Positions 8,545 through 58,182 of a DNA stretch of 64,000 nucleotides are shown here, piece by piece; position 1 is the stretch's first letter; the number at the start of each line of letters is the position of its first letter. The notes beneath the pieces are model-generated. The model was not told the origin of the DNA. It ran no database searches and worked only from the letters and a program-made list of their open reading frames with translations. A program made the position numbers and the translations under genes. This stretch comes from Flavipsychrobacter sp. (GTDB lineage: Bacteria > Bacteroidota > Bacteroidia > Chitinophagales > Chitinophagaceae). Where the stretch lies: assembly GCA_016786615.1 (NCBI GenBank), contig JAEUVX010000004.1, forward strand, positions 1 to 64,000, written 5' to 3'.

Positions 8545-9828
8545 TTATTCTATAACAAGCTTTCTGGAAGCTATGTGTGTATGTTCATTGCGAAGGTTCA
8601 GTATATAATTACCTGCAGGTAGTTGCGTGCTGAGTATTACAGTATTGGCGGCAGGGATTGATTTACTGTAAACATTGCGCCCCTGCATGTCTGCAATGAC
8701 GATGGTATTAAAACTTGCAGTGCCGGTATTGATATTGATAGTTCCTTTTGAAGGATTAGGCGAAATGGTGATTGCATCGGTGGTATTGATTGCAGCAACT
8801 GTAACAGCGCCGTAAGTTTCGAAATAGAAATAGTTTTCTGTCATGGGTAATATATCATAATCTCCTGCACCTTGATACCTGTAAGCTTTCATGGCAGTTA
8901 ATAATCCGCCCGGTGCATCATAGTATCTTATTTTTCGGTTGAAGGTATCTAATTGTTGTCCTCGCTGAAATATCACGGTATCAGTCAGCTTGTTGTTGCT
9001 GAAGATAATGCTCTTTCTTTCTGTAGGTGTCCATACAGATAAATTGGTATCCCATGAATAAGTGGCGTGGCTATTGAAGAAAGTATCTGTACCGCGATAG
9101 CCAAAGCTATCGAGCTGGACATTTAAAAATATTCCCAATACCTCGTAAGTGCTGAGCCTGCGCACTAAACGGTTTCTGGAATCGAAGGTTTTACGGATGA
9201 TGGATTTATGTGCCCATGCTATGCTGTCGTAAAAGTAGATATTACAAAGTGTGTCATTACCATTTGCATCGTAGCTGTATGTTTTTTTCTGAACAGGTAA
9301 TGCGTTGTTAACACTATAATTGCTATCCATGGTTAACAGACGGGCGGTATTGTATGCAAGTGTGCGCACAGTATGGCCATGCGGAACACCGTTGCTTGAG
9401 TCTCTGTCGTCTATCGATATCATTTTTCCGAACGTGTTGTATGTAAAACGGCAATGCTTTCTGTAGCCACCTATGTATGTATAAGCAAATTGATCTGCAA
9501 GATTGCTGCTATTGTATTTATACGTTTTGTTGGAGGCACGTATGAGTCCCATTCCCGGAAACAGTTCGTGATGGACGGTAGAATCGCAGAATATGTTTTG
9601 TTCTTCAATATCGCCGCTCATAAACAGATCGTAATAACTTCTTTCATCTGTGTGTACAGAACCGCGACTATCCCCGGTATAGTAGTGACGATTGCTATCT
9701 ACCATTACCGTATTGGAATAATTTGAAGATGCGATGATGCGTTTTTTTGTGGCTGTTGTCTTGTATACAGGCTGTGCATATACTGATGCACATAATAATA
9801 ACAATGCGATAGATAAAAATAATTTCAT
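8545..9828 (-). CDS. Secreted YD-repeat-like protein with T9SS sorting domain (paralogue 1 of 3)
   Basis: 427 residues from the ATG at 9828 (MKLFLSIALLLLCASVYAQP, a clear signal peptide). An upstream in-frame start at 9864 would only add residues before it. After cleavage comes the family signature KTTATKKRIIASSNYSN. The middle carries degenerate tyrosine-rich strands such as YSYDANGNDT, KTFDSRNRLVRR and FGYRGTDTF, reminiscent of YD/RHS repeats but without an RHS core or toxin domain. The C-terminus (SPNPSKGTININTG ... GNYILNLR) is a T9SS sorting domain. It is a paralogue of the next two genes upstream. It appears monocistronic with its own terminator. Function is unknown; extracellular binding is plausible from the repeat type. 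Confidence 0.85.
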   Translation of the reverse strand: MKLFLSIALLLLCASVYAQPVYKTTATKKRIIASSNYSNTVMVDSNRHYYTGDSRGSVHTDERSYYDLFMSGDIEEQNIFCDSTVHHELFPGMGLIRASNKTYKYNSSNLADQFAYTYIGGYRKHCRFTYNTFGKMISIDDRDSSNGVPHGHTVRTLAYNTARLLTMDSNYSVNNALPVQKKTYSYDANGNDTLCNIYFYDSIAWAHKSIIRKTFDSRNRLVRRLSTYEVLGIFLNVQLDSFGYRGTDTFFNSHATYSWDTNLSVWTPTERKSIIFSNNKLTDTVIFQRGQQLDTFNRKIRYYDAPGGLLTAMKAYRYQGAGDYDILPMTENYFYFETYGAVTVAAINTTDAITISPNPSKGTININTGTASFNTIVIADMQGRNVYSKSIPAANTVILSTQLPAGNYILNLRNEHTHIASRKLVIE

Positions 9829-9867
9829 AGAGAATTGATTTATACGAATGTATGTGCGAAGCAAACA

Positions 9868-9888
9868 GAAAAAATTGACTTATGTTAA
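9868..9888 (-). promoter_or_regulatory. Conserved element upstream of YD-like paralogue 1
   Basis: The plus-strand sequence GAAAAAATTGACTTATGTTAA matches 19 of 21 bases with the segment 11329-11349 upstream of paralogue 2. Both lie about 40 bp ahead of the start codon on the minus strand. It may be the promoter or an operator of this family; there is no canonical TAnnTTTG box here. Confidence 0.4.
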
Positions 9889-9962
9889 TTACTTGTGGCC
9901 GGTTGCAATAACAAGCTGTATCATTAGCTTACGGTTAAATACGCTTGAAATTATTGCAAGAA

Positions 9963-9985
9963 AAAGCCACCGTTATGGTGGCTTT
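9963..9985 (-). terminator. Rho-independent terminator after the 9995-11287 gene
   Basis: Stem AAAGCCACC / GGTGGCTTT with a 5-nt loop, 10 bp past the stop of YD-like paralogue 2. The U-tract is short. Confidence 0.8.
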
Positions 9986-9994
9986 CAACTGTAT

Positions 9995-11287
9995 TTACTG
10001 AATGATTATTTGCGAGGAAGTGATTTTTGTTCCCTGCTTATCGTGTATGGATAGTATATAAGTGCCGGTAGATAATTGAGTGTTGATAATAGCATTATCT
10101 GTTTCCGGTTGCGATTGAGAAAAGGCAATGCGCCCCTGCATGTCTGTTATGATGATGTGGCTGAAGGTAGCGTTGTTTGTCTTTACGGCCATGATGCCTT
10201 TAGATGGATTGGGCGATACAATAATTCCTGCTACTTTTTCCGTAGTAATGATGCTTGCAGGGTTGTATGTCTGAAAGTAGAATGATGTACGGTCGTAGGG
10301 TGCAGACGCATATACACCTCCGCCATTGTATTTATATGATTGTCCATATTGAATGAGACCATCTGTATCGTAGTAAGTAATGATTCGCTCAAGTGTATCC
10401 CACGATGAATTCCATTTCTGTATTAAAATCGTATCAGTCAGTTTGTTTGTACTGAAGTAGGTATTATGTTTTTCTACACCTACCCATTGTGAGATATTGG
10501 CGTCCCAATTATAAACTACATGATAATTTTGAAACGTATCAGTGCCTCTGTAGCCAAAACTATCTGTTTGTGTATAGTGCAGCCCTGTGCCTGTATCTTT
10601 TTGTGCTATTTTACTTATAAGGCGATTATTGGCATCGAACGTTTTGCGAATAATACCGGTTAATGCCCAACTGCCATTTTTATAACTATATGCAGACAGG
10701 AGTGTATCATTGTTGTTGGCATCGTAAACGGTAATGCGTTTCAAATAGGGAGTATTGTTCATCGTATTGTACGAGCTGTCTGTTACAAGATAGCCGGCAG
10801 TATTGTAATTAAGATAACGGGTATAATTACTGAGCTGCGCACCTGCGCCTGATGTGTCTCTGAAACTGATAGTAGTTGGCTTTCCGGCAGCGTTGCGGGT
10901 TATGTTACAATACTGTTTGTAATTGCCCGTATTTGTAAATACAAAATTATCAGGCAGATTATTGCTGTTGTATTTGTAAGTTTTGTTCGATGAACGAATG
11001 ATGCTTGTTCCACCATAGTTGATATAGTTGACAGTAGAGTCGCAGTGTATGTTTTGCTCCTCTTCACTACCACGCAGATAGTTGTCGTAATAGCTTTCTG
11101 CATTCGTGAGTTCTGAACCACGGCCATAGCTATAGTAATATCTGTTACTGTCTATCAAGTATCCGTTAGCAAAATAGGATGTTGCTATAATGCGCTTTTT
11201 TACAGCCGTAGTCTTGTTGTGTACAGGCTTTGCAATAGCAGAAATTGTACAAAGACTAAACATGAGAATTGGTATTCTTAATTTCAT
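9995..11287 (-). CDS. Secreted YD-repeat-like protein with T9SS sorting domain (paralogue 2 of 3)
   Basis: 430 residues. The signal peptide MKLRIPILMFSLCTISAIAK is followed by the family signature NKTTAVKKRIIATSYFANG and the YYYSYGRGSELTNAESYYDN block found in all three paralogues. Tyrosine-rich YD-like strands follow (TVYDANNNDT, RKTFDANNRLI, FGYRGTDTF, TYYDTDGL). The C-terminal SPNPSKGIMAVKTN ... DMQGRIAFSQ ... GTYILSI is a T9SS sorting domain. It is closest to paralogue 1. It has its own upstream element and terminator, so it can be expressed independently. Its biochemical role is unknown. Confidence 0.85.
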   Translation of the reverse strand: MKLRIPILMFSLCTISAIAKPVHNKTTAVKKRIIATSYFANGYLIDSNRYYYSYGRGSELTNAESYYDNYLRGSEEEQNIHCDSTVNYINYGGTSIIRSSNKTYKYNSNNLPDNFVFTNTGNYKQYCNITRNAAGKPTTISFRDTSGAGAQLSNYTRYLNYNTAGYLVTDSSYNTMNNTPYLKRITVYDANNNDTLLSAYSYKNGSWALTGIIRKTFDANNRLISKIAQKDTGTGLHYTQTDSFGYRGTDTFQNYHVVYNWDANISQWVGVEKHNTYFSTNKLTDTILIQKWNSSWDTLERIITYYDTDGLIQYGQSYKYNGGGVYASAPYDRTSFYFQTYNPASIITTEKVAGIIVSPNPSKGIMAVKTNNATFSHIIITDMQGRIAFSQSQPETDNAIINTQLSTGTYILSIHDKQGTKITSSQIIIQ

Positions 11288-11328
11288 AAACAGTTATTTT
11301 TTATCAATGTTATGAATGTGAATAAGAT

Positions 11329-11349
11329 GAAAAAATTGACTTTAGTTAA
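11329..11349 (-). promoter_or_regulatory. Conserved element upstream of YD-like paralogue 2
   Basis: The plus-strand sequence starts GAAAAAATTGACTTTAGTT and agrees at 19 of 21 positions with 9868-9888. It sits 42 bp upstream of the start codon. The equivalent place ahead of paralogue 3 keeps only a weak match. Confidence 0.4.
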
Positions 11350-11430
11350 GTTCAAATTTCAATGACGGATAAATGACTTGGCTATTACAAAAGCACTATG
11401 AAACTGTCATGGTTGTATCATTGCTCATAT

Positions 11431-11470
11431 AAAACAATAAAGCCACTGAGTTAAGTGGCTTTATTGTTTT
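11431..11470 (-). terminator. Rho-independent terminator after the 11485-12855 gene
   Basis: A perfect 17-bp stem (AAAACAATAAAGCCACT and its complement) with a 6-nt loop, 14 bp past the stop of YD-like paralogue 3. It is the longest uninterrupted terminator stem noted in the window. Confidence 0.9.
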
Positions 11471-11484
11471 AGTGGGTTGCTGTA

Positions 11485-12855
11485 TTACTGCTTAATAAAT
11501 TGTTGATAGGCTGTTTGTGTTTTGTCTTTGTTGAAGATGGTGAGTATGTAATTGCCTGAAGGTAGTTGTTGTGTATTAATAACTTGTTGTTGCCCGCTTA
11601 ATTGTTCGCTGTGTACATTTTGCCCTTTCATATTTGTGATGTTAATGTTGCCATTTAGTATGGAGGTTTGTACGAAAAGGATATTGTTTGCAGGGTTGGG
11701 GTATAATGTCAACAAAGATTTGTCATTTAGTTTTTGAATTGTCAGCGGGTCATAGTCTTCATAGTACATGGTAGATTGGTCGTAAGGAACGGTTGCATAA
11801 TTGCCATTGCCATTGTACAGGTAGCCATTGCTACGCAGCAGCAACCCGTTTGCATCGTAGGTATATACATCCCGTTCCATTGTATCCCATTGTGTAGTGT
11901 ACTGATAGATATAGTATGTATCTACAAGGCCGGCACTGTTGTACTGATTGTGTATCATTTCTTCGGCGGTCCATGATGATAAACCAGCATCCCAGGTATA
12001 ATCAACATGGAATTCATGATTTACGGAACTGCCCTGATAGCTGAAACTGTCTTTGTCCATATTTTCAAGCCCCGAACCCATATCGTAAGCAGCTTCCGTT
12101 GTTATCAGCCTGTTGCTGCCGTCATAAACATTTGTATTAGTGTATGTGAGCAACCAACTGCCTGCAATATATTGGTAGGATAGGAAGGAGAGCATATTGC
12201 CATTGGAATTGTAGGTATATGTGCGTTTGCTGAGCGGCACATTGTTGATGATATCGTGTGTGCTATCGTATGTACGCAGGTTTTGAGAATTGTAAGAAAT
12301 GTACATGCTGCGTTTCGGTATCATAGCCGTACCATTCATGGTGTCGGAAGAGGTGATGGTAGTTACCAGCCCGTTGCTGTTATATGTATGTGCAAACTCA
12401 GCTTGCTGCCATTGCGAAAAGTGTTTCACTTTGCCTATACTTCCGTTTGTATTGTAAGTATATACTTTAGTATCAGAGCGCACGAGGCCCGCACCGGATG
12501 AAAAATCGTGCCAGTTGACAGATGAATCGCTGCGGATGTTTTGAACAGGGTTGATCGCTGTGGAATAGTAGTTGTCGAAATAGCTATCGGCAGTAGTGTT
12601 TGCAGAGCCACGGCCATTGGAATAATAGTAATGGTTGCTATCCAGCACACTGCCACCTGTAGTGTAGGCATTTGCGATGAGGCGTTTTTTCAGTGCAGTG
12701 GTTTTGTTGGCGGCGTTTGTTTGTTTTTGCAATAAAACATGCACGAGTGCTTTATGCGGATTTTTTGCCGATGTTTTGTTTTTGTGCTGCAGTGGTACTG
12801 CATGTGTAGTGTAAGTACAAGCGGAGAGCAAGATGATTGGTACAAAAGATTTCAT
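11485..12855 (-). CDS. Secreted YD-repeat-like protein with T9SS sorting domain (paralogue 3 of 3)
   Basis: 456 residues from the ATG at 12855; a TTG seven codons upstream is less likely. The N-terminus MKSFVPIILLSACTYTTHAV is ambiguous: it can be read as an ordinary signal peptide (cleavage near THAVP) or as a lipoprotein signal with LLSAC. The sorting domain at the C-terminus (LYPNPANNILFVQTS ... NMKGQNVHSE ... GNYILTI) argues for ordinary export and T9SS. A 35-residue lysine- and asparagine-rich insert precedes the family signature KTTALKKRLIANAYTTG, which the other two lack. YD-like strands (YTYNSNGNM, YTYDANGLLLRSNGYLYNGN) fill the middle. Function is unknown. Confidence 0.85.
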   Translation of the reverse strand: MKSFVPIILLSACTYTTHAVPLQHKNKTSAKNPHKALVHVLLQKQTNAANKTTALKKRLIANAYTTGGSVLDSNHYYYSNGRGSANTTADSYFDNYYSTAINPVQNIRSDSSVNWHDFSSGAGLVRSDTKVYTYNTNGSIGKVKHFSQWQQAEFAHTYNSNGLVTTITSSDTMNGTAMIPKRSMYISYNSQNLRTYDSTHDIINNVPLSKRTYTYNSNGNMLSFLSYQYIAGSWLLTYTNTNVYDGSNRLITTEAAYDMGSGLENMDKDSFSYQGSSVNHEFHVDYTWDAGLSSWTAEEMIHNQYNSAGLVDTYYIYQYTTQWDTMERDVYTYDANGLLLRSNGYLYNGNGNYATVPYDQSTMYYEDYDPLTIQKLNDKSLLTLYPNPANNILFVQTSILNGNINITNMKGQNVHSEQLSGQQQVINTQQLPSGNYILTIFNKDKTQTAYQQFIKQ

Positions 12856-12961
12856 GTCGTTGGTATTTTTTTTCAAATAGACGTGAAAAATTTTGAATAA
12901 CTGAGGTGCGTAGTATGCTGCAAATAAGATAATGACAATAGTATTGCAGAAAAAGCTGTTT

Positions 12962-39664: not shown

Positions 39665-39841
39665 ATGGAACTGTCAAAAGCATTGTTGGGTGCGTTATTG
39701 CTGGGTATAGCGGTAGAGACATCATCATGCACCAAAGATGAATCTAAGAATGTAACACCCGCCAATAACGGCGAGCAAGTGCAGAATCCTGCTGCTACAC
39801 CCGAACAACCCGATAATTGCCCTGCATGTGGTTTGGGGTAA
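39665..39841 (+). CDS. 58-residue lipoprotein-like peptide with C-terminal CPACG, candidate RiPP precursor
   Basis: 58 residues. A hydrophobic N-terminus (LSKALLGALLLGIAVETSSC) fits a lipoprotein signal with Cys22 as the possible lipid site. A short Asn/Pro/Glu-rich linker (DESKNVTPANNGEQVQNP) follows, then the end PDNCPACGLG with Cys52 and Cys55. The next gene, 22 bp downstream, is a MNIO/DUF692 enzyme; such enzymes act on cysteines of short ribosomal peptides and are encoded beside them. I therefore propose it as the substrate, with CPAC as the modified core. No other precursor-like reading frame is adjacent. The gene is too short to be detected by length alone, so its reality rests on signal peptide, Cys motif and position. 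Confidence 0.75.
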   Translation: MELSKALLGALLLGIAVETSSCTKDESKNVTPANNGEQVQNPAATPEQPDNCPACGLG

Positions 39842-39863
39842 TAATTAAGTTTGTAACAGTAAA

Positions 39864-40982
39864 GTGCGCACAATATACTCAGGCGTAGCCTGCAACCTCG
39901 ATGCAGACATATTACAAGCCTGCTATCCGTTATTTGAGGCATCTAAAATAGAAGCCATTGAATGGTCGTTTGATGCACTATATAAACGCAGGAATATCCC
40001 TGACTGGTTTCTGCAATTATTACACGCTTTTGCCAATGAAGGCAGGCTTATCGGGCATGGCGTTTTCTTCTCTTTATTTTCAGGGAGGTGGACGTATGAA
40101 CAACAAGCATGGCTGAAGCATTTATCAAAAGTTTCTTCAGCATTCAGGTTCGACCATATTACAGAGCATTTCGGGTTTATGACAGGTGCCGATTTTCATA
40201 GTGGTGCACCATTAAGCATTCCATATACCAATACAACACTTACTATTGGTAAAGACAGGCTGGCAAGAATATATGATGCCTGCGGCAAGCCTGTAGGATT
40301 GGAGAACCTTGCATTTTCGTATGATATAGATGAGGTAAAAAGGCACGGAGATTTTCTGAGCAAACTGATTGAGCCTGTTAACGGTTTTATTATTCTCGAC
40401 CTGCACAATTTATATTGCCAGTTACAGAATTTTTCGGTGGGTGTTGATGAGATAATAAATCTGTATCCGCTGGAGAGGGTGAGGGAAATACATATATCAG
40501 GCGGTAGTTGGGAAGATTCGATAATAGATATAGGAAGAAAAATAAGAAGGGACACACACAATGACGCAGTGCCGCAGGAAGTATTTGCACTGCTTGAATA
40601 CGCGATTGATAAATGTCCCAACCTGAAGTATGTGATACTGGAACAAGTGGGTGGGGCACTGCATACACAGCAGAGCAGGGAGGATTTTGCAGCAGACTTT
40701 TTGAAGATGAGTGCAATCGTGAAACAAGCGAAAGGGTTACCGCCCGAAACAAATGATTTTCTGCCAAAAGAATTGATAATACCGGCATTGGTAGCAGAAG
40801 ACGAAGAACTGCATCAGCAACAAACGGAACTATCTGAAATATTTGAAACAGCAGCAGGGTATGATGATGCTTTAATGAGGCTGCAACAATCATCGCTGGC
40901 AAATAGCGATTGGCAAATAGAAAACTGGGCGCCCTATATGCTTGAAACAGCCATCAGCATAGCGCAGAAGTGGAAGAAGTAA
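39864..40982 (+). CDS. MNIO (DUF692) family iron-dependent peptide-modifying oxidase
   Basis: 372 residues from a GTG start. It has the TIM-barrel DUF692 pattern with the metal ligands in order: the IEAIEWSFD opening, GHGVFFSLFSG (His65), FDHITEHFGF (Glu101, His102), IPYTNTTL, GLENLAFSYD (Glu147), ILDLHNLYCQ (Asp179, His181), VREIHISGG (His210), RDTHNDAVPQEVF (Asp230, His232) and VILEQVGG (Glu260). MNIO enzymes (MbnB, ChrH, bufferin enzymes) use two or three irons and O2 to rebuild cysteines in ribosomal peptides. The barrel ends near 285; the last about 85 residues (LHQQQTELSEIF, YDDALMRLQQSS) are an extra helical part that may do the job of the usual partner protein. The preceding gene is the likely substrate. 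Confidence 0.85.
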   Translation: MRTIYSGVACNLDADILQACYPLFEASKIEAIEWSFDALYKRRNIPDWFLQLLHAFANEGRLIGHGVFFSLFSGRWTYEQQAWLKHLSKVSSAFRFDHITEHFGFMTGADFHSGAPLSIPYTNTTLTIGKDRLARIYDACGKPVGLENLAFSYDIDEVKRHGDFLSKLIEPVNGFIILDLHNLYCQLQNFSVGVDEIINLYPLERVREIHISGGSWEDSIIDIGRKIRRDTHNDAVPQEVFALLEYAIDKCPNLKYVILEQVGGALHTQQSREDFAADFLKMSAIVKQAKGLPPETNDFLPKELIIPALVAEDEELHQQQTELSEIFETAAGYDDALMRLQQSSLANSDWQIENWAPYMLETAISIAQKWKK

Positions 40983-45421: not shown

Positions 45422-46165
45422 TTATAACAGCAACACAGAAAGTACGTAATCGCCCAGCAATATCAGAATGCAGCTTACCACTACCGATGTGGTGGAAGCA
45501 CGGCCTATCTCCAGCGCGCCACCTTTTACATAATAACCGTAATATGCAGGTATGATGGATATGATGAGTGAAAAAGTAAAAGCTTTTGCGAGTGCAAAGA
45601 ACAGGTTGTATGGCAGGAAGCCTTGTGTAAGCCCTTGTATAAACTGCTCTTCGGTAATGATGCTGGAAAACATGCCTGCTATATAACCACCCCATATACA
45701 AATAGCAATAGATAGTACAATAAGGCTTGGAACCATTATCATGGCAGCAACAATTTTTGGCAATATCAGGTAGGTTTTGGTGTTAATACCCATTATCTCC
45801 AGCGCATCTATCTGCTCGCTCACGCGCATATTGCCCAGCTCCGATGCTATTTTAGAACCAACAACACCTGCCAGTACAATACATATTACGGTAGGCGAAA
45901 GCTCGAGGATAGTAGAGTCGCGGATGATTTGTGCGATAACGGGTTTTGCTACCAGCGGGCTTATCAGCTGATAAGCTGTTTGTATGGTAAGTACTGCACC
46001 CAGGAAGAAAGAGATAACAACAACAATAGGTAATGAACGTATGCCGATGTCGTTGCATTGCTCCATAAATTCCTTCCAATATACTTTGGTGTTCTCAGGC
46101 TTGCCGATAGATTCCTTCAGCATGATGGTGATGCGCCCGAGGTGTTCTAAAAACTCTTTCAGCAT
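45422..46165 (-). CDS. mlaE: MlaE/YrbE-family ABC transporter permease
   Basis: 247 residues from the ATG at 46165. It is the membrane subunit of a lipid-transport ABC system that moves phospholipids between the inner membrane and a periplasmic MCE protein. The MlaE signature is visible in PIVVVISFFLGAVLTIQTAY, the E-L-S-P-T-V region RDSTILELSPTVICIVLAGV, GSKIASELGNMRVSEQIDAL and the closing GGALEIGRASTTSVVVSCIL. Five to six helices. The ATPase (mlaF) and MCE (mlaD) genes, which often follow in operons, are not in this window; the next gene downstream is on the other strand. Confidence 0.9.
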   Translation of the reverse strand: MLKEFLEHLGRITIMLKESIGKPENTKVYWKEFMEQCNDIGIRSLPIVVVISFFLGAVLTIQTAYQLISPLVAKPVIAQIIRDSTILELSPTVICIVLAGVVGSKIASELGNMRVSEQIDALEIMGINTKTYLILPKIVAAMIMVPSLIVLSIAICIWGGYIAGMFSSIITEEQFIQGLTQGFLPYNLFFALAKAFTFSLIISIIPAYYGYYVKGGALEIGRASTTSVVVSCILILLGDYVLSVLLL

Positions 46166-46171
46166 ATGGTA

Positions 46172-46179
46172 CAAATGTA
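46172..46179 (-). promoter_or_regulatory. -7 box for the mlaE-like gene
   Basis: The minus strand reads TACATTTG six bases upstream of the ATG, so the transcript would be nearly leaderless. A chance match is possible. Confidence 0.35.
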
Positions 46180-54660: not shown

Positions 54661-55557
54661 TTATTGATAAACGAACCTGCCTGCGAATTTATTGCCGGAA
54701 TAATTATCCGTAATGGTATAAAAATACACACCTGCTGCCGGTAGCTCACCAATTGGTATTGCTGTTTGGTTGATTATTGATTTGCTTGCTAACTTTCTGC
54801 CCAATATATCCGTAATAATTAAACTGCCCGATACTACTGTGTATGGGAAATTGATTTTAGAGTGCAGGTTGGCGGGGTTGGGGGCAATGGTGGTCAGTGT
54901 TTTTGTTTGTATTTCATTGATAGATACATTACAATTCATTGGGTCTAAGTAATATTGATTTTTCGATAAAGTTGTTGCAGCGACTATTTTATTATTATTC
55001 CTAAAACAAAGAAGCTTATTAATACCACTAGTCCCGACGTAAGGTTGTATTGGCATGTAGAAGCCTTGCAAGCAACCAATGTTTTCAATGTAATAATATT
55101 CGATAGTATACCTTAATGGGTAATTAGCAGAAAAACATTTCCAAGCCCATTTTTTATATATAATACTATCAACAAGGCAAGAGTCAAGGCTGGTAATGAT
55201 AGTAGTTAAGGTATCGTCGATTGTGATTATTTTATTGAGCGTGTCTCCAATAGCCGCTGTGAAGTCATAAAGTATATATTCGTTAGTGTCAATAGCATAG
55301 CTTCCTGATAAATCTTTAATGATAATACGTTTTTTGCTATTTGAAGTATCTTCTCTTATATAAGCGTTGTTGTTCAGTTTTCGGTAGCTGATTCCGTTTA
55401 GCATTGCCTGATTACCAAATGATGTATTATAATGCCATGTCCCGGACCAGTACCATCTGTAGTTCGACCAAATATTAGTTGTATCCATGAACTGTATTTT
55501 TTGCCCGTAGGTTATAGCGTGCAGCAGCAGGAATAATATGGTGACGGTAATCCTCAT
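54661..55557 (-). CDS. T9SS-secreted protein of unknown function, array member 1
   Basis: 298 residues. Signal peptide MRITVTILFLLLHAITYGQ, a mature start KIQFMDTTNIWSNYRWYW, a middle with YIREDTSNSKKRIIIKDLSG and TIDDTLTTIITSLDSCLVDS, and a T9SS sorting domain (APNPANLHSKINFPYTVVSG, GRKLASKSIINQT, GVYFYTIT). The stretch NKLLCFRNNNKIVAATTLS lies where the paralogues have CFENNGSI. The start codon overlaps the stop of member 2. Function is unknown. Confidence 0.85.
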   Translation of the reverse strand: MRITVTILFLLLHAITYGQKIQFMDTTNIWSNYRWYWSGTWHYNTSFGNQAMLNGISYRKLNNNAYIREDTSNSKKRIIIKDLSGSYAIDTNEYILYDFTAAIGDTLNKIITIDDTLTTIITSLDSCLVDSIIYKKWAWKCFSANYPLRYTIEYYYIENIGCLQGFYMPIQPYVGTSGINKLLCFRNNNKIVAATTLSKNQYYLDPMNCNVSINEIQTKTLTTIAPNPANLHSKINFPYTVVSGSLIITDILGRKLASKSIINQTAIPIGELPAAGVYFYTITDNYSGNKFAGRFVYQ

Positions 55558-56465
55558 TCGTAAATGAATTTGCCGGTGAAGGATTTGTTGCTGTTGTTAT
55601 CTGTAATGGTATAAAAATACACGCCCAATGCAGGTAGCTCACCAATTGGTATTGCTGTTTGGTTGATTATTGATTTGCTTGCTAACCTTCTGCCCAATAT
55701 ATCCGTAATAATTAAACTGCCCGATACTACTGTGTTTGGGAAAGTGATTTTGGAGTATTGGTTGGCGGGGTTGGGGGAGATGGTGATGGTTTTATTATTG
55801 CCAACATTGCTTGCAACAGATAATGCACAAGTTTGAGGGCTCAGATAATATCCGCCAGTAGGCATGGGCACAGTAATAATGCTGCCATTGTTTTCAAAAC
55901 AAATTAAATGTTCCCAAGCTAAGCCTGAATATGGCATCAATGTGTAGTCCATGCCAAGCATACAGCCAATTCCTTCAATTAATGTATATTGTTTGTATGC
56001 TGCAGGACCATGAGTTTGATAAACACTTCTAAGCGCCCAAATCAAATGAGGGGTACCATTTATAATTGCAGTATCAATAGCAATGACGACATTTTTGAAT
56101 GTGTCATATTGCTGATAAGTTATAATTGTTGATGTAAAAGTATCACCTAAGCCTAACGTGTAATCATGAAATATGTGTTCAGACGTATCTGCATAAGCAG
56201 GGTCTGTCGGGTCAATCCGGCAATAGACTTTGCGGGCAATTGTATCTTCTCTTATATATAAGTTGAGTATTCTCGAAGCTGCTAATTTTTTGTAGTGAAT
56301 CCCATTTATAACAACCTCACCTTTATAGTAGTCTGTTCCTGTGACAGAACCTTCACTGTGACTATTGATATGTGTCCAACGATTACTTGTATCTGTAAAT
56401 CGAATCTTTTGCCCGTAGGTTATAGCGTGCAGCAGCAGGAATAATATGGTGATGGTAATCCTCAT
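55554..56465 (-). CDS. T9SS-secreted protein of unknown function, array member 2
   Basis: 303 residues. Signal peptide MRITITILFLLLHAITYGQ is nearly identical to members 1 and 3. The region CFENNGSIITVPMPTGGYYL and the following SPQTCALSVASNVGNNKTIT are almost the same as in member 4, in both protein and DNA, while the sorting-domain segment VVSGSLIITDILGRRLASKS goes with member 1. This makes it a mosaic. A conserved REDT...KVYCR strand is present in all members. Overlaps member 1 and member 3 by four bases each. Confidence 0.85.
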   Translation of the reverse strand: MRITITILFLLLHAITYGQKIRFTDTSNRWTHINSHSEGSVTGTDYYKGEVVINGIHYKKLAASRILNLYIREDTIARKVYCRIDPTDPAYADTSEHIFHDYTLGLGDTFTSTIITYQQYDTFKNVVIAIDTAIINGTPHLIWALRSVYQTHGPAAYKQYTLIEGIGCMLGMDYTLMPYSGLAWEHLICFENNGSIITVPMPTGGYYLSPQTCALSVASNVGNNKTITISPNPANQYSKITFPNTVVSGSLIITDILGRRLASKSIINQTAIPIGELPALGVYFYTITDNNSNKSFTGKFIYE

Positions 56466-57292
56466 TCGTAAATGAATTTGCCGGTGAAGGATTGGTTGTT
56501 GTTGTTATCTGTAATAGTATAAAAATACACACCCGCTGCGGGTAGCTCACCAATAGGTATTGCTGTTTGGTTGAATATTGATTTGCTGACTAACTTTCTG
56601 CCTAATATATCTGTAATAGTGAGTGTGCCTGCCTGTATGGTGTATGGGAAATTGATATTAGAGTATTGGTTGGCAGGGTTGGGGGAGATGGTGACTGCCT
56701 TATTGTTTGTGTTTATGTTATTTACATCAAGCGCGCAGGAAAATGATGTGATGTAGTAATCTACAGGTATCATAATCTCATCCCTTTTGAAACAAACAGT
56801 TTCTTTTCCTTGTTCAAATGTTCCCCAAACTAATACTCCAATACCCTCAAGAATTGTAGTAGTATAAATGTAAGGTGCCAGATTATTGAGTTCCCATTTT
56901 TTGTAATAATTGCCTGCAATCAAAATAGAATCCTTTTTTGCAACCACACCTGCTGCATTATGTGGCAAACTGAAAAAATGATAAACTAATGTATCTCCAA
57001 CTTGCAGGTTGTAGTCATAGAGTAGTTTCTCTACAGTATCGCCCGGTTTTATGATGTATACTTTATTCAGCAGCGTGTCTTCGCGGCAGAGCCCCAGATT
57101 TTTTATATTGGTATAGTCGAAGCCTTTTTGAGTTACAGTACCATCATAGTAACGTAGCTGATAGTTACTGAAGGCAGGCTGCCCTGCAGAGAGCTTAATT
57201 TTCCAGCTATTTACTGTATCCGTAAAGCGTATCTTTTGCCCGTAGGTTATAGCATGCAGCAGCAGGAATAATATGGTGATGGTAATCCTCAT
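56462..57292 (-). CDS. T9SS-secreted protein of unknown function, array member 3
   Basis: 276 residues. Signal peptide MRITITILFLLLHAITYGQ, then KIRFTDTVNSWKIKLSAGQ. The family strand is CREDTLLNKVYIIKPGDTVE. Its CFKRDEIMIPVDYYITSF and ALDVNNINTNNKAVT middle differs from members 2 and 4, but the sorting domain (INFPYTIQAGTLTITDILGR, KLVSKSIFNQTAIPIGEL) matches member 4. Both ends overlap neighbours by four bases, so the array is translated as an operon. Function is unknown. Confidence 0.85.
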   Translation of the reverse strand: MRITITILFLLLHAITYGQKIRFTDTVNSWKIKLSAGQPAFSNYQLRYYDGTVTQKGFDYTNIKNLGLCREDTLLNKVYIIKPGDTVEKLLYDYNLQVGDTLVYHFFSLPHNAAGVVAKKDSILIAGNYYKKWELNNLAPYIYTTTILEGIGVLVWGTFEQGKETVCFKRDEIMIPVDYYITSFSCALDVNNINTNNKAVTISPNPANQYSNINFPYTIQAGTLTITDILGRKLVSKSIFNQTAIPIGELPAAGVYFYTITDNNNNQSFTGKFIYE

Positions 57293-58182
57293 TCGTAAAT
57301 GAATTTGCCGGTTAGGGAATGGTTGTAGTTATCTGTAATGGTATAAAAATATACACCCGATGCAGGTAGCTCACCAATAGAGATTGCCTTTTGGTTGATT
57401 ATTGATTTGCTGACTAACTTTCTGCCTAATATATCTGTAATAGTGAGTGTGCCAGCTTGTATGGTGTTTGGGAAAGTGATTTTAGAGTGTGAGTTGGCTG
57501 GGTTGGGGGAGATGGTGATGGTTTTGTTATTACCAACATTGCTTGCAACAGATAATGCACAAGTTTGAGGGCTTAGATAATATCCACCAGTAGGCATAGG
57601 CACAGTAACAATGCTGCCATTGTTCTCAAAACATAACAGATGTCTGTCATTCTCAAATATTCCCGGCATTAATGGCCGACTGAGCCCTGATGTACATCCT
57701 ATGCCTTCGATGACTGTATAAGGAGGATAATAGTACGTGCTTAATTTACTAGCATAAACATACTCATATGTCCATACTTTGTGCTGGGTGTTATTTATTA
57801 ATACTGAGTCGAGTTGTGTAACTGAATAAATAAAAGTATCAGTAGGTATGCGATTAATATAGTTGATACTGGTAAAGCTGTCGCCGTAGGTAAGGTTGTA
57901 GTCGTGCAGTAAATGCTCGGTAGTATCTTGGCTGTTACCGTATTTCAGATACACTTTATTTTGTACTGTGTCCTCTCTGCAAAAACCGTAACCTTTCACA
58001 TATCTAAAGCCATTAATTATAGTGTCGTCACCATTATAATATCTGTAGGTATAAGTATAGTCCGGATGACTGAAAGTCTCAATCCATACATTACTCGTAT
58101 CTGTAAACCGAATCTTTTGCCCGTAGCTATCTTGGGCAGAAAAGAAAATAAGTAGGATAATAAAGGGTATAAGTCTTTTCAT
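57289..58182 (-). CDS. T9SS-secreted protein of unknown function, array member 4 (first in operon)
   Basis: 297 residues. It has a different signal peptide (MKRLIPFIILLIFFSAQDSY) from the other three, then the same mature start GQKIRFTDTSNVW. FCREDTVQNKVYLKYGN and TVIEGIGCTSGLSRPLMPG are family strands, with CFENNGSIVTVPMPTGGYYL identical in layout to member 2. The T9SS sorting domain (TFPNTIQAGTLTITDILGR) is like member 3. It lies first in the transcription order and its start region, 94 bp from the divergent paaZ, should carry the promoter of the array. No TAnnTTTG box was recognised there. Function unknown. Confidence 0.85.
   Translation of the reverse strand: MKRLIPFIILLIFFSAQDSYGQKIRFTDTSNVWIETFSHPDYTYTYRYYNGDDTIINGFRYVKGYGFCREDTVQNKVYLKYGNSQDTTEHLLHDYNLTYGDSFTSINYINRIPTDTFIYSVTQLDSVLINNTQHKVWTYEYVYASKLSTYYYPPYTVIEGIGCTSGLSRPLMPGIFENDRHLLCFENNGSIVTVPMPTGGYYLSPQTCALSVASNVGNNKTITISPNPANSHSKITFPNTIQAGTLTITDILGRKLVSKSIINQKAISIGELPASGVYFYTITDNYNHSLTGKFIYE

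Follow-up and report, generated by a model that had tools for sequence, protein, structure and literature searches.

A two-gene DybA/DybH-type locus in Flavipsychrobacter predicted to make a lipidated, macrocyclised peptide

The gene pair and its neighbourhood

We examined a pair of adjacent genes in a 64,000-nucleotide stretch of DNA from Flavipsychrobacter sp. (assembly GCA_016786615.1, contig JAEUVX010000004.1, positions 1 to 64,000 of the forward strand; the whole stretch is called the window here), and the features of the pair are collected in Table 1. The upstream gene is a 58-codon ATG frame with the translation MELSKALLGALLLGIAVETSSCTKDESKNVTPANNGEQVQNPAATPEQPDNCPACGLG. The initial annotation had described it as a 58-residue frame with a PDNCPACGLG end lying 22 bp ahead of an MNIO gene, and translation and coordinates agree with that description exactly. 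The NCBIfam model NF050125 ('chryseobasin-related MNIO class RiPP peptide') matches the peptide at 66.9 bits (cut-off 40) over its full length, residues 1-58 aligning with model positions 1-56. The downstream gene is intact and its product matches PF05114 at 100.8 bits (cut-off 25). In profile searches of the genome containing the window, which is 91% complete, this was the single PF05114 match, and the precursor was the only frame above the NF050125 cut-off. A second, sub-threshold NF050125 match (22.6 bits; contig 6, 179592) was rejected as a precursor, as it is a PF19335 lipoprotein without an MNIO. That frame (L003 1474-1656 of genome G000) encodes a 60-aa lipoprotein-like protein with the PF19335 HMBD domain and the pattern CPMKC...CPVCGM, and its likeness to the precursor model is weak.

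Table 1. Coordinates in the window of the two genes and of their predicted parts
Feature	Position	Strand	Basis
Precursor peptide gene, DybA/ChrA-related, 58 aa, ATG start	39665..39841	+	Translation; NF050125; upstream-frame conservation
Predicted N-terminal signal peptide, residues 1-21 (K5; hydrophobic 6-17; T19-S20-S21 before Cys)	39665..39727	+	Sequence; 91-peptide comparison
Cys22, predicted lipidation site and start of the mature lipopeptide	39728..39730	+	Cys conserved in 91 peptides; DybA lipidation (PMC12636315)
K24-D25-E26, fits surface export signal C-X-K-(D/E)2	39734..39742	+	PMC5080379; motif counts
Core C52-P-A-C-G-L-G58, predicted macrocycle and hydantoin site	39818..39838	+	91-peptide comparison; chemistry from PMC12636315
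MNIO (DUF692) maturase, DybH/ChrH-like, 372 aa, GTG start	39864..40982	+	PF05114; NF050165; AF2 model; Foldseek
MNIO C-terminal helical domain, residues 314-371, three helices	40803..40976	+	AF2 model; ChrH-subfamily hallmark per PMC12636315

The scanned neighbours of the pair encode a DUF4292 lipoprotein, a nucleotidyltransferase, a GDP_Man_Dehyd protein, a class-V aminotransferase, a dTDP-sugar epimerase, an aldehyde dehydrogenase and a hybrid histidine kinase; for a 135-aa frame on the other strand, NCBIfam gave nothing up to E 10 and Pfam nothing above cut-off. Neither a ChrI/ChrE/ChrP-like gene nor a gene for a partner protein was found among them, and the early remark that the pair adjoins no evident gene for a protease, a transporter or another maturase holds for these scanned neighbours. 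Farther away, 4.4 kb downstream of the pair, the minus strand of the window carries a gene (45422-46174) for a lipid-transport permease of the MlaE type (PF02405, 220 bits). Two arrays of tandem paralogous genes for secreted-looking proteins also lie on the minus strand. The four proteins encoded at 54661-58182 (276-303 aa) have a common C-terminal domain, which we take to resemble a T9SS sorting domain, and the three encoded at 8545-12876 (439, 430 and 463 aa) presumably end in a similar sorting-type domain.

Conservation and family membership of enzyme and peptide

The AF2 model of the enzyme (pLDDT 90) has a predicted TIM barrel followed by helices at residues 314-329, 333-341 and 357-371, and its best Foldseek matches are TglH (8hci/8hi7, E 8.1e-13) and MbnB (7fc0/7dz9/7tcw/7tcr, E 9.1e-11). 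Residues invariant among 24 aligned MNIO sequences include H65, E101, H102, E147, N148, D179, H181, N182, H210, D230, H232 and E260, and in a profile alignment with TglH 8hci and 3bww the metal-ligand motifs of the window's enzyme correspond; alignment thus supports the prediction that its MNIO metal ligands are complete. Its best NCBIfam model is NF050165 (ChrH), at 387.1 bits against an equivalog cut-off of 600 that is passed in none of 395 genomes of the class and none of 294 of the family. Other MNIO models score far under their cut-offs (BufB 83/310, HvfB 69/360 and MbnB 16/325 bits), and the ChrA model NF050124 gives the precursor 13.8 bits (cut-off 50).

We scanned 84,980 species genomes with the alignment of 24 MNIO sequences, confirmed 278 relatives and kept the best 80 of these. 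A stop-to-stop frame ending in C..CG.G lies upstream of the MNIO gene in 79 of these best 80 loci. Among 11,355 plus-strand frames such endings occur in 90 that are shorter than 400 letters, all of them at most 462 bp upstream of the MNIO gene, and in none of the 11,471 minus-strand frames of at least 25 letters in the same loci. At L104 (5000-6100, a MAG) a ChrH-like MNIO was found with no upstream CxxCGxG peptide seen. Of 25 ChrH-like loci that were collected independently and overlap the first set in part (the window included), 24 have an upstream C..CG.G frame; the sole miss, L015, is a partial match with an internal stop near a contig start. The initial annotation had proposed looking for a conserved cysteine-containing peptide beside orthologous MNIO genes, and the 79 loci supply one. 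The distribution of ChrH-like MNIO genes is widespread yet patchy: 7 of the 395 genomes examined from the class have a match above 300 bits (that of L015 is one), as do 20 of the 294 examined from the family and two of the five listed members of the genus, one being the window's. The NF050125 cut-off is exceeded in only 3 of 296 genomes sampled from the phylum.

These data bear on the nature of the short frame. Its expression is a prediction from the sequence, and it could in principle be an unexpressed frame that lies upstream of the MNIO gene by chance. Since it matches NF050125 along its full length, and since 79 of 80 loci carry its counterpart against 0 of 11,471 frames on the opposite strand, conservation across the Bacteroidota already refutes this reading, whose probability is practically negligible. 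Alternatively, the peptide might be an unmodified small metal-binding lipoprotein with a CPxCG knuckle, the MNIO acting on something else. Its tail does bear a weak likeness to rubredoxin-type knuckles (13 bits for Pfam RUBY_RBDX, under the cut-off of 26.5), and the genome encodes the small PF19335 lipoprotein elsewhere. However, the peptide has a single knuckle, it co-occurs with an MNIO gene almost throughout the related loci, CPxCGxG is a proven substrate of this MNIO subfamily (PMC12636315), and the genome holds no other PF05114 match or above-cut-off precursor to which the enzyme could be assigned; we regard this alternative as highly improbable. The first reading of the pair, as a RiPP precursor beside a cysteine-modifying MNIO, is supported as the right one, and the comparison across 80 loci that might have refuted it did not.

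Some loci depart from the simple arrangement. Two upstream precursors are present in 11 of the 80. Endings with Arg or Lys (CITCGRG, CPPCGRG, CEACGRG, CGKCGKG, CIACGRG and CPACGRG) occur in L047, L053, L054, L048, L055, L009, L010, L102, L120 and L137, in several cases on a second precursor and in L120 and L137 on the sole one. Fluviicola-type loci (L092, L097, L101, L105 and L125) have tandem distinct precursors, both ending in CPxCGMG, before one MNIO gene. When 749 flanking frames of at least 110 residues from 81 loci were clustered, the largest cluster (median 5.4 kb upstream) reached just 11 of the 81 loci, which argues that there is no conserved partner. Among the 45 clusters listed, the window's flanks are common only to L067 and L073 or L099.

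A tree of 41 MNIO sequences (38 of the 80 loci, the window, L009 and L010) places the window's enzyme in a set of 39 (support 100/100) with sequences from Chitinophaga, Hymenobacter and Dyadobacter, separated by a long branch from L009 and L010, whose precursors by eye lack the cysteine at the end of the signal. Inside this set the window belongs to a group of 25 (92/90) with Chitinophaga and Hymenobacter rows, its internal order unresolved, and Dyadobacter forms a separate clade. The only close kin of the window's enzyme starred in the tree is from Chitinophagaceae LGM1, at 80% identity. The kinship seen here is with sequences from the same genera as the characterised DybH, ChsH and HymH, which are not themselves in the tree. 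Because the ChrA and ChrH cut-offs were missed and the tree set joins the window to these genera, we file the pair as DybA/DybH-type and predict a mass change of -4 Da. Loci of this type are already known: within the chryseobasin family, the DybA/DybH type has NCBIfam models and a preprint (PMC12636315). In our judgement, with a probability of about 0.9, the pair is a two-gene, chryseobasin-like locus of this type that makes a lipidated, macrocyclised peptide (a DAG-RiPP).

A closely related reading is that the product belongs to the same family but is S-methylated, for +10 Da overall, as with ChrA/ChrH of Chryseobacterium. ChrH is indeed the enzyme's best NCBIfam model, and ArlA/ArlH of Archangium (Myxococcota) yields a mixture of -4 Da and S-methylated products (PMC12636315). 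Yet the ChrH and ChrA scores are far under their cut-offs, the window's MNIO sits in a supported set with genera in which the enzymes tested gave -4 Da, and the scanned neighbours include no gene like ChrI, ChrE or ChrP, so methylation appears quite improbable.

Predicted maturation and location of the product

We compared 91 peptides, namely 90 upstream frames from the 80 related loci and the window's own. Three parts are conserved, the signal stretch, the cysteine at its end and the C-terminal motif, with a variable linker between them. That cysteine is preceded by Ser, Ala or Gly in all 91. In the CPxCGxG motif the Pro is present in 88, the two Cys and two Gly having been imposed on all 91 by the search pattern, and the residue before the last Gly is Met in 78, Leu in 10 (the window among them) and Arg in 3. 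The window has Glu18 at position -4 before Cys22, shared only with its sister L067 (2 of the 91). By the lipobox pattern PROSITE PS51257 a charged residue would not be allowed at -4. Codon differences between the window and L067 (synonymous/nonsynonymous) number 8/1 in the signal, 14/9 in the linker and 4/1 in the core, too few to conclude from, and the signal of the unrelated DUF4292 lipoprotein is likewise identical between the two. The initial annotation had proposed a CPAC core as a minimal two-cysteine substrate; the core is better drawn as the seven residues CPACGLG. Cys22, a further cysteine, had been passed over. Its place in a putative lipoprotein-type signal would imply a lipid-anchored product and supply the export and leader-removal route that had seemed to be missing.

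Chen et al. (bioRxiv, November 2025; PMC12636315) described minimal loci of a precursor and an MNIO in Bacteroidota outside Chryseobacterium, and characterised DybA/DybH of Dyadobacter crusticola, ChsA/ChsH of Chitinophaga sancti and HymA/HymH of Hymenobacter gelipurpurascens. Such precursors have a third cysteine within a signal-peptidase-II signal, and their MNIO enzymes have a C-terminal helical domain. Acting alone, DybH turns CPACGMG into a macrocycle and a hydantoin (-4.03 Da), with one free thiol, the structure having been solved for the Dyadobacter peptide; ChsA and HymA also lose 4 Da, and the C-terminal seven residues fused to GFP suffice for modification (PMC12636315). HymA ends in CPGCGLG, so the Leu of CPACGLG has a precedent. 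DybA was recovered from E. coli in lipidated form, its third cysteine being lipidated by the ordinary lipoprotein pathway, and a third acyl chain was seen (PMC12636315).

By analogy with these relatives, the chemistry, the independence from a partner and the lipidation can be expected to apply to the window's pair. The 58-aa precursor would be synthesised and its C-terminal CPACGLG taken into the barrel of the cytoplasmic, iron-containing MNIO, which, acting alone, would remove four hydrogens (-4.03 Da). The Cys52 sulfur would be joined to the former beta-carbon of Cys55, and the Cys55 carbonyl would become part of a hydantoin that includes the two following residues; one thiol would stay free and unmethylated. 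After Sec passage, Lgt would add diacylglycerol to Cys22 and LspA would cleave before it, and the resulting 37-residue lipopeptide would travel to the outer membrane and might reach the cell surface. The computed [M+H]+ of the LysC C-terminal fragment NVTPANNGEQVQNPAATPEQPDNCPACGLG is 3006.33 unmodified, 3002.30 at -4 Da and 3016.32 if also methylated. The genome encodes both Lgt (PF01790, 113.3 bits) and LspA (PF01252, 116.2 bits). The N-terminal domain of Lnt (PF20154) was not found in it, nor in a Bacteroides control genome. Bacteroidota have another N-acyltransferase. Since PF20154 was not found, the native host need not add a third acyl chain such as DybA received in E. coli.

We also considered whether the N-terminal stretch has a second task as a RiPP leader, recognised by the MNIO or by its helical domain. 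The first 17 residues are strongly conserved in the 91 peptides (S or P at position 4 in all, A10 in 83, G14 in 76), and the pattern M.[LIV][SP]..[LV][LI].[AT] is found in 90 of 91 against none of 36 control lipoprotein-like frames, although peptide starts were chosen by script among in-frame Met with a preference for M-x-[LIVM]-[SPNAE], which favours this pattern and somewhat sharpens positions 2-4. The controls were picked by regular expression from the same loci and the window, and the sequences compared are related. In a first comparison, of 22 precursors with 16 DUF4292 lipoproteins (six control rows with no lipobox found, the window's included, and L171/L172 having been dropped), identity over the first 16 residues was 0.55 against 0.19 ungapped and 0.54 against 0.28 aligned. 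We set this contrast aside because, in 22 of 23 other genomes, the DUF4292 protein shares just 24-36% identity with that of the window (the congener's shares 82%). GldK is a better matched control, being 61% identical overall in the same 19 genomes in which the MNIO is 60% identical; these are 19 of 22 genomes, G749 having no lipobox found in GldK and G822 and G633 no full-length GldK match. The ungapped identity of the first 12 residues was 0.60 for precursors against 0.33 for GldK, whose figure suffers from ambiguous starts, whereas the aligned signal identity was 57% against 51%, so that the difference nearly vanishes. The GFP fusion result also argues against a need for a leader (PMC12636315). 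With the matched control nearly as conserved, we claim no hidden leader and give this possibility a low probability.

Turning to the site of action, the C-T-K-D-E sequence that starts at Cys22 fits an export signal of Bacteroidota lipoproteins, and sorting to the cell surface may follow from it. Lauber et al. (2016) described C-X-K-(D/E)2-X after the lipidated cysteine as directing lipoproteins to the surface in Capnocytophaga (PMC5080379). Lys at +3 is present in 50 of 91 precursors against 10 of the 36 controls (Fisher p 0.006), at least two acidic residues at +2 to +6 in 45 of 91 against 6 of 36 (p 0.0006), and the full motif in 16 of 91 against 1 of 36 (p 0.04), all three tests ignoring relatedness. 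SusD proteins, supposed surface lipoproteins, weigh against this reading of the motif: in genomes of the same family Lys at +3 occurs in 25 of 28, two acidic residues in 4 of 28 and the full K-(D/E)2 motif in none of 28 (from 30 loci, two without a signal having been dropped; L209 and L225 look mis-started). The word 'surface' does not occur in the main text of the DAG-RiPP preprint (PMC12636315), and the export-signal phrase was not found in the 8 papers listed, of 25, that touch on ribosomally synthesized peptides or MNIO enzymes. The motif is at most suggestive of surface display, for which support is weaker than for the chemistry and the lipidation, and it offers a way to test where the product acts.

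SusCD genes are frequent neighbours of DAG-RiPP loci (PMC12636315), and uptake through SusCD could be imagined as part of the system. SusD-like_3 (PF14322) was found in neither the window's genome (91% complete) nor its congener G798, and the other 10 of the 12 genomes searched have 1 to 107 matches each; PF14322 was the one SusCD model that the search covered. Together with the commonest flank family reaching only 11 of 81 loci, this makes SusCD uptake unlikely as a general need, unless another type of SusD serves, and the idea is doubtful in this host. We tentatively propose that in hosts without SusD-like_3 the mature macrocyclised lipopeptide stands on the outside of the outer membrane by way of C-T-K-D-E and acts alone, without SusCD uptake, though we would put the odds somewhat against it. 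As to a role, our guess is that the ring motif, displayed at the surface, binds a ligand or metal or serves as a signal.

The blind reading of the window confirms that sequence alone is enough to recognise a tiny, widespread system of two genes. The locus is a further, clean example: the genome is small, it has a single recognised precursor and a single MNIO, and SusD-like_3 was not found in it, so that the host lineage is a simple place in which to study what DAG-RiPPs do. The absent SusD-like_3 match also speaks against the view that the system needs import through SusCD.

Relation to known MNIO systems

The window's enzyme shares the MNIO family with those of bufferins, oxazolins, methanobactin and pearlin (BufB, HvfB, MbnB and TglH), and its predicted fold with MbnB and TglH. 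These systems differ in their substrate motifs and products, and the characterised ones have partner proteins; MbnB and TglH, unlike the window's MNIO, have no helical C-terminal domain (PMC12636315). The chryseobasin MNIO enzymes form a separate cluster in the MNIO landscape (PMC12452194), which leaves our reading unchanged.

Chryseobasin itself (ChrA/ChrH/ChrI of Chryseobacterium) is closer, being made by the same MNIO subfamily from a C-terminal CPACGMG, and the product is described as a macrocycle with an imidazolidinedione (PMC10214503). ChrA, unlike the window's peptide, is longer, has no third cysteine, is predicted to be cleaved by signal peptidase I and is S-methylated, and its cluster carries ChrI, ChrE and ChrP (PMC12636315; PMC10214503); the proteins of the window miss the ChrA and ChrH cut-offs.

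The closest likeness is to the DybA/DybH group. The window's pair differs from it in its Chitinophagaceae host, near strain LGM1, in ending with CPACGLG and not the common CPACGMG, and in the Glu at -4 before the lipidation cysteine, and it is known from its genes alone. Like DybA, ChsA and HymA, its precursor is short, has a putative lipoprotein-type signal, an internal cysteine and a C-terminal CPxCGxG, and belongs to a two-gene unit without a partner. Like DybH, ChsH and HymH, its MNIO has a predicted C-terminal helical domain, and sequences from the same genera as theirs share its supported set in the tree.
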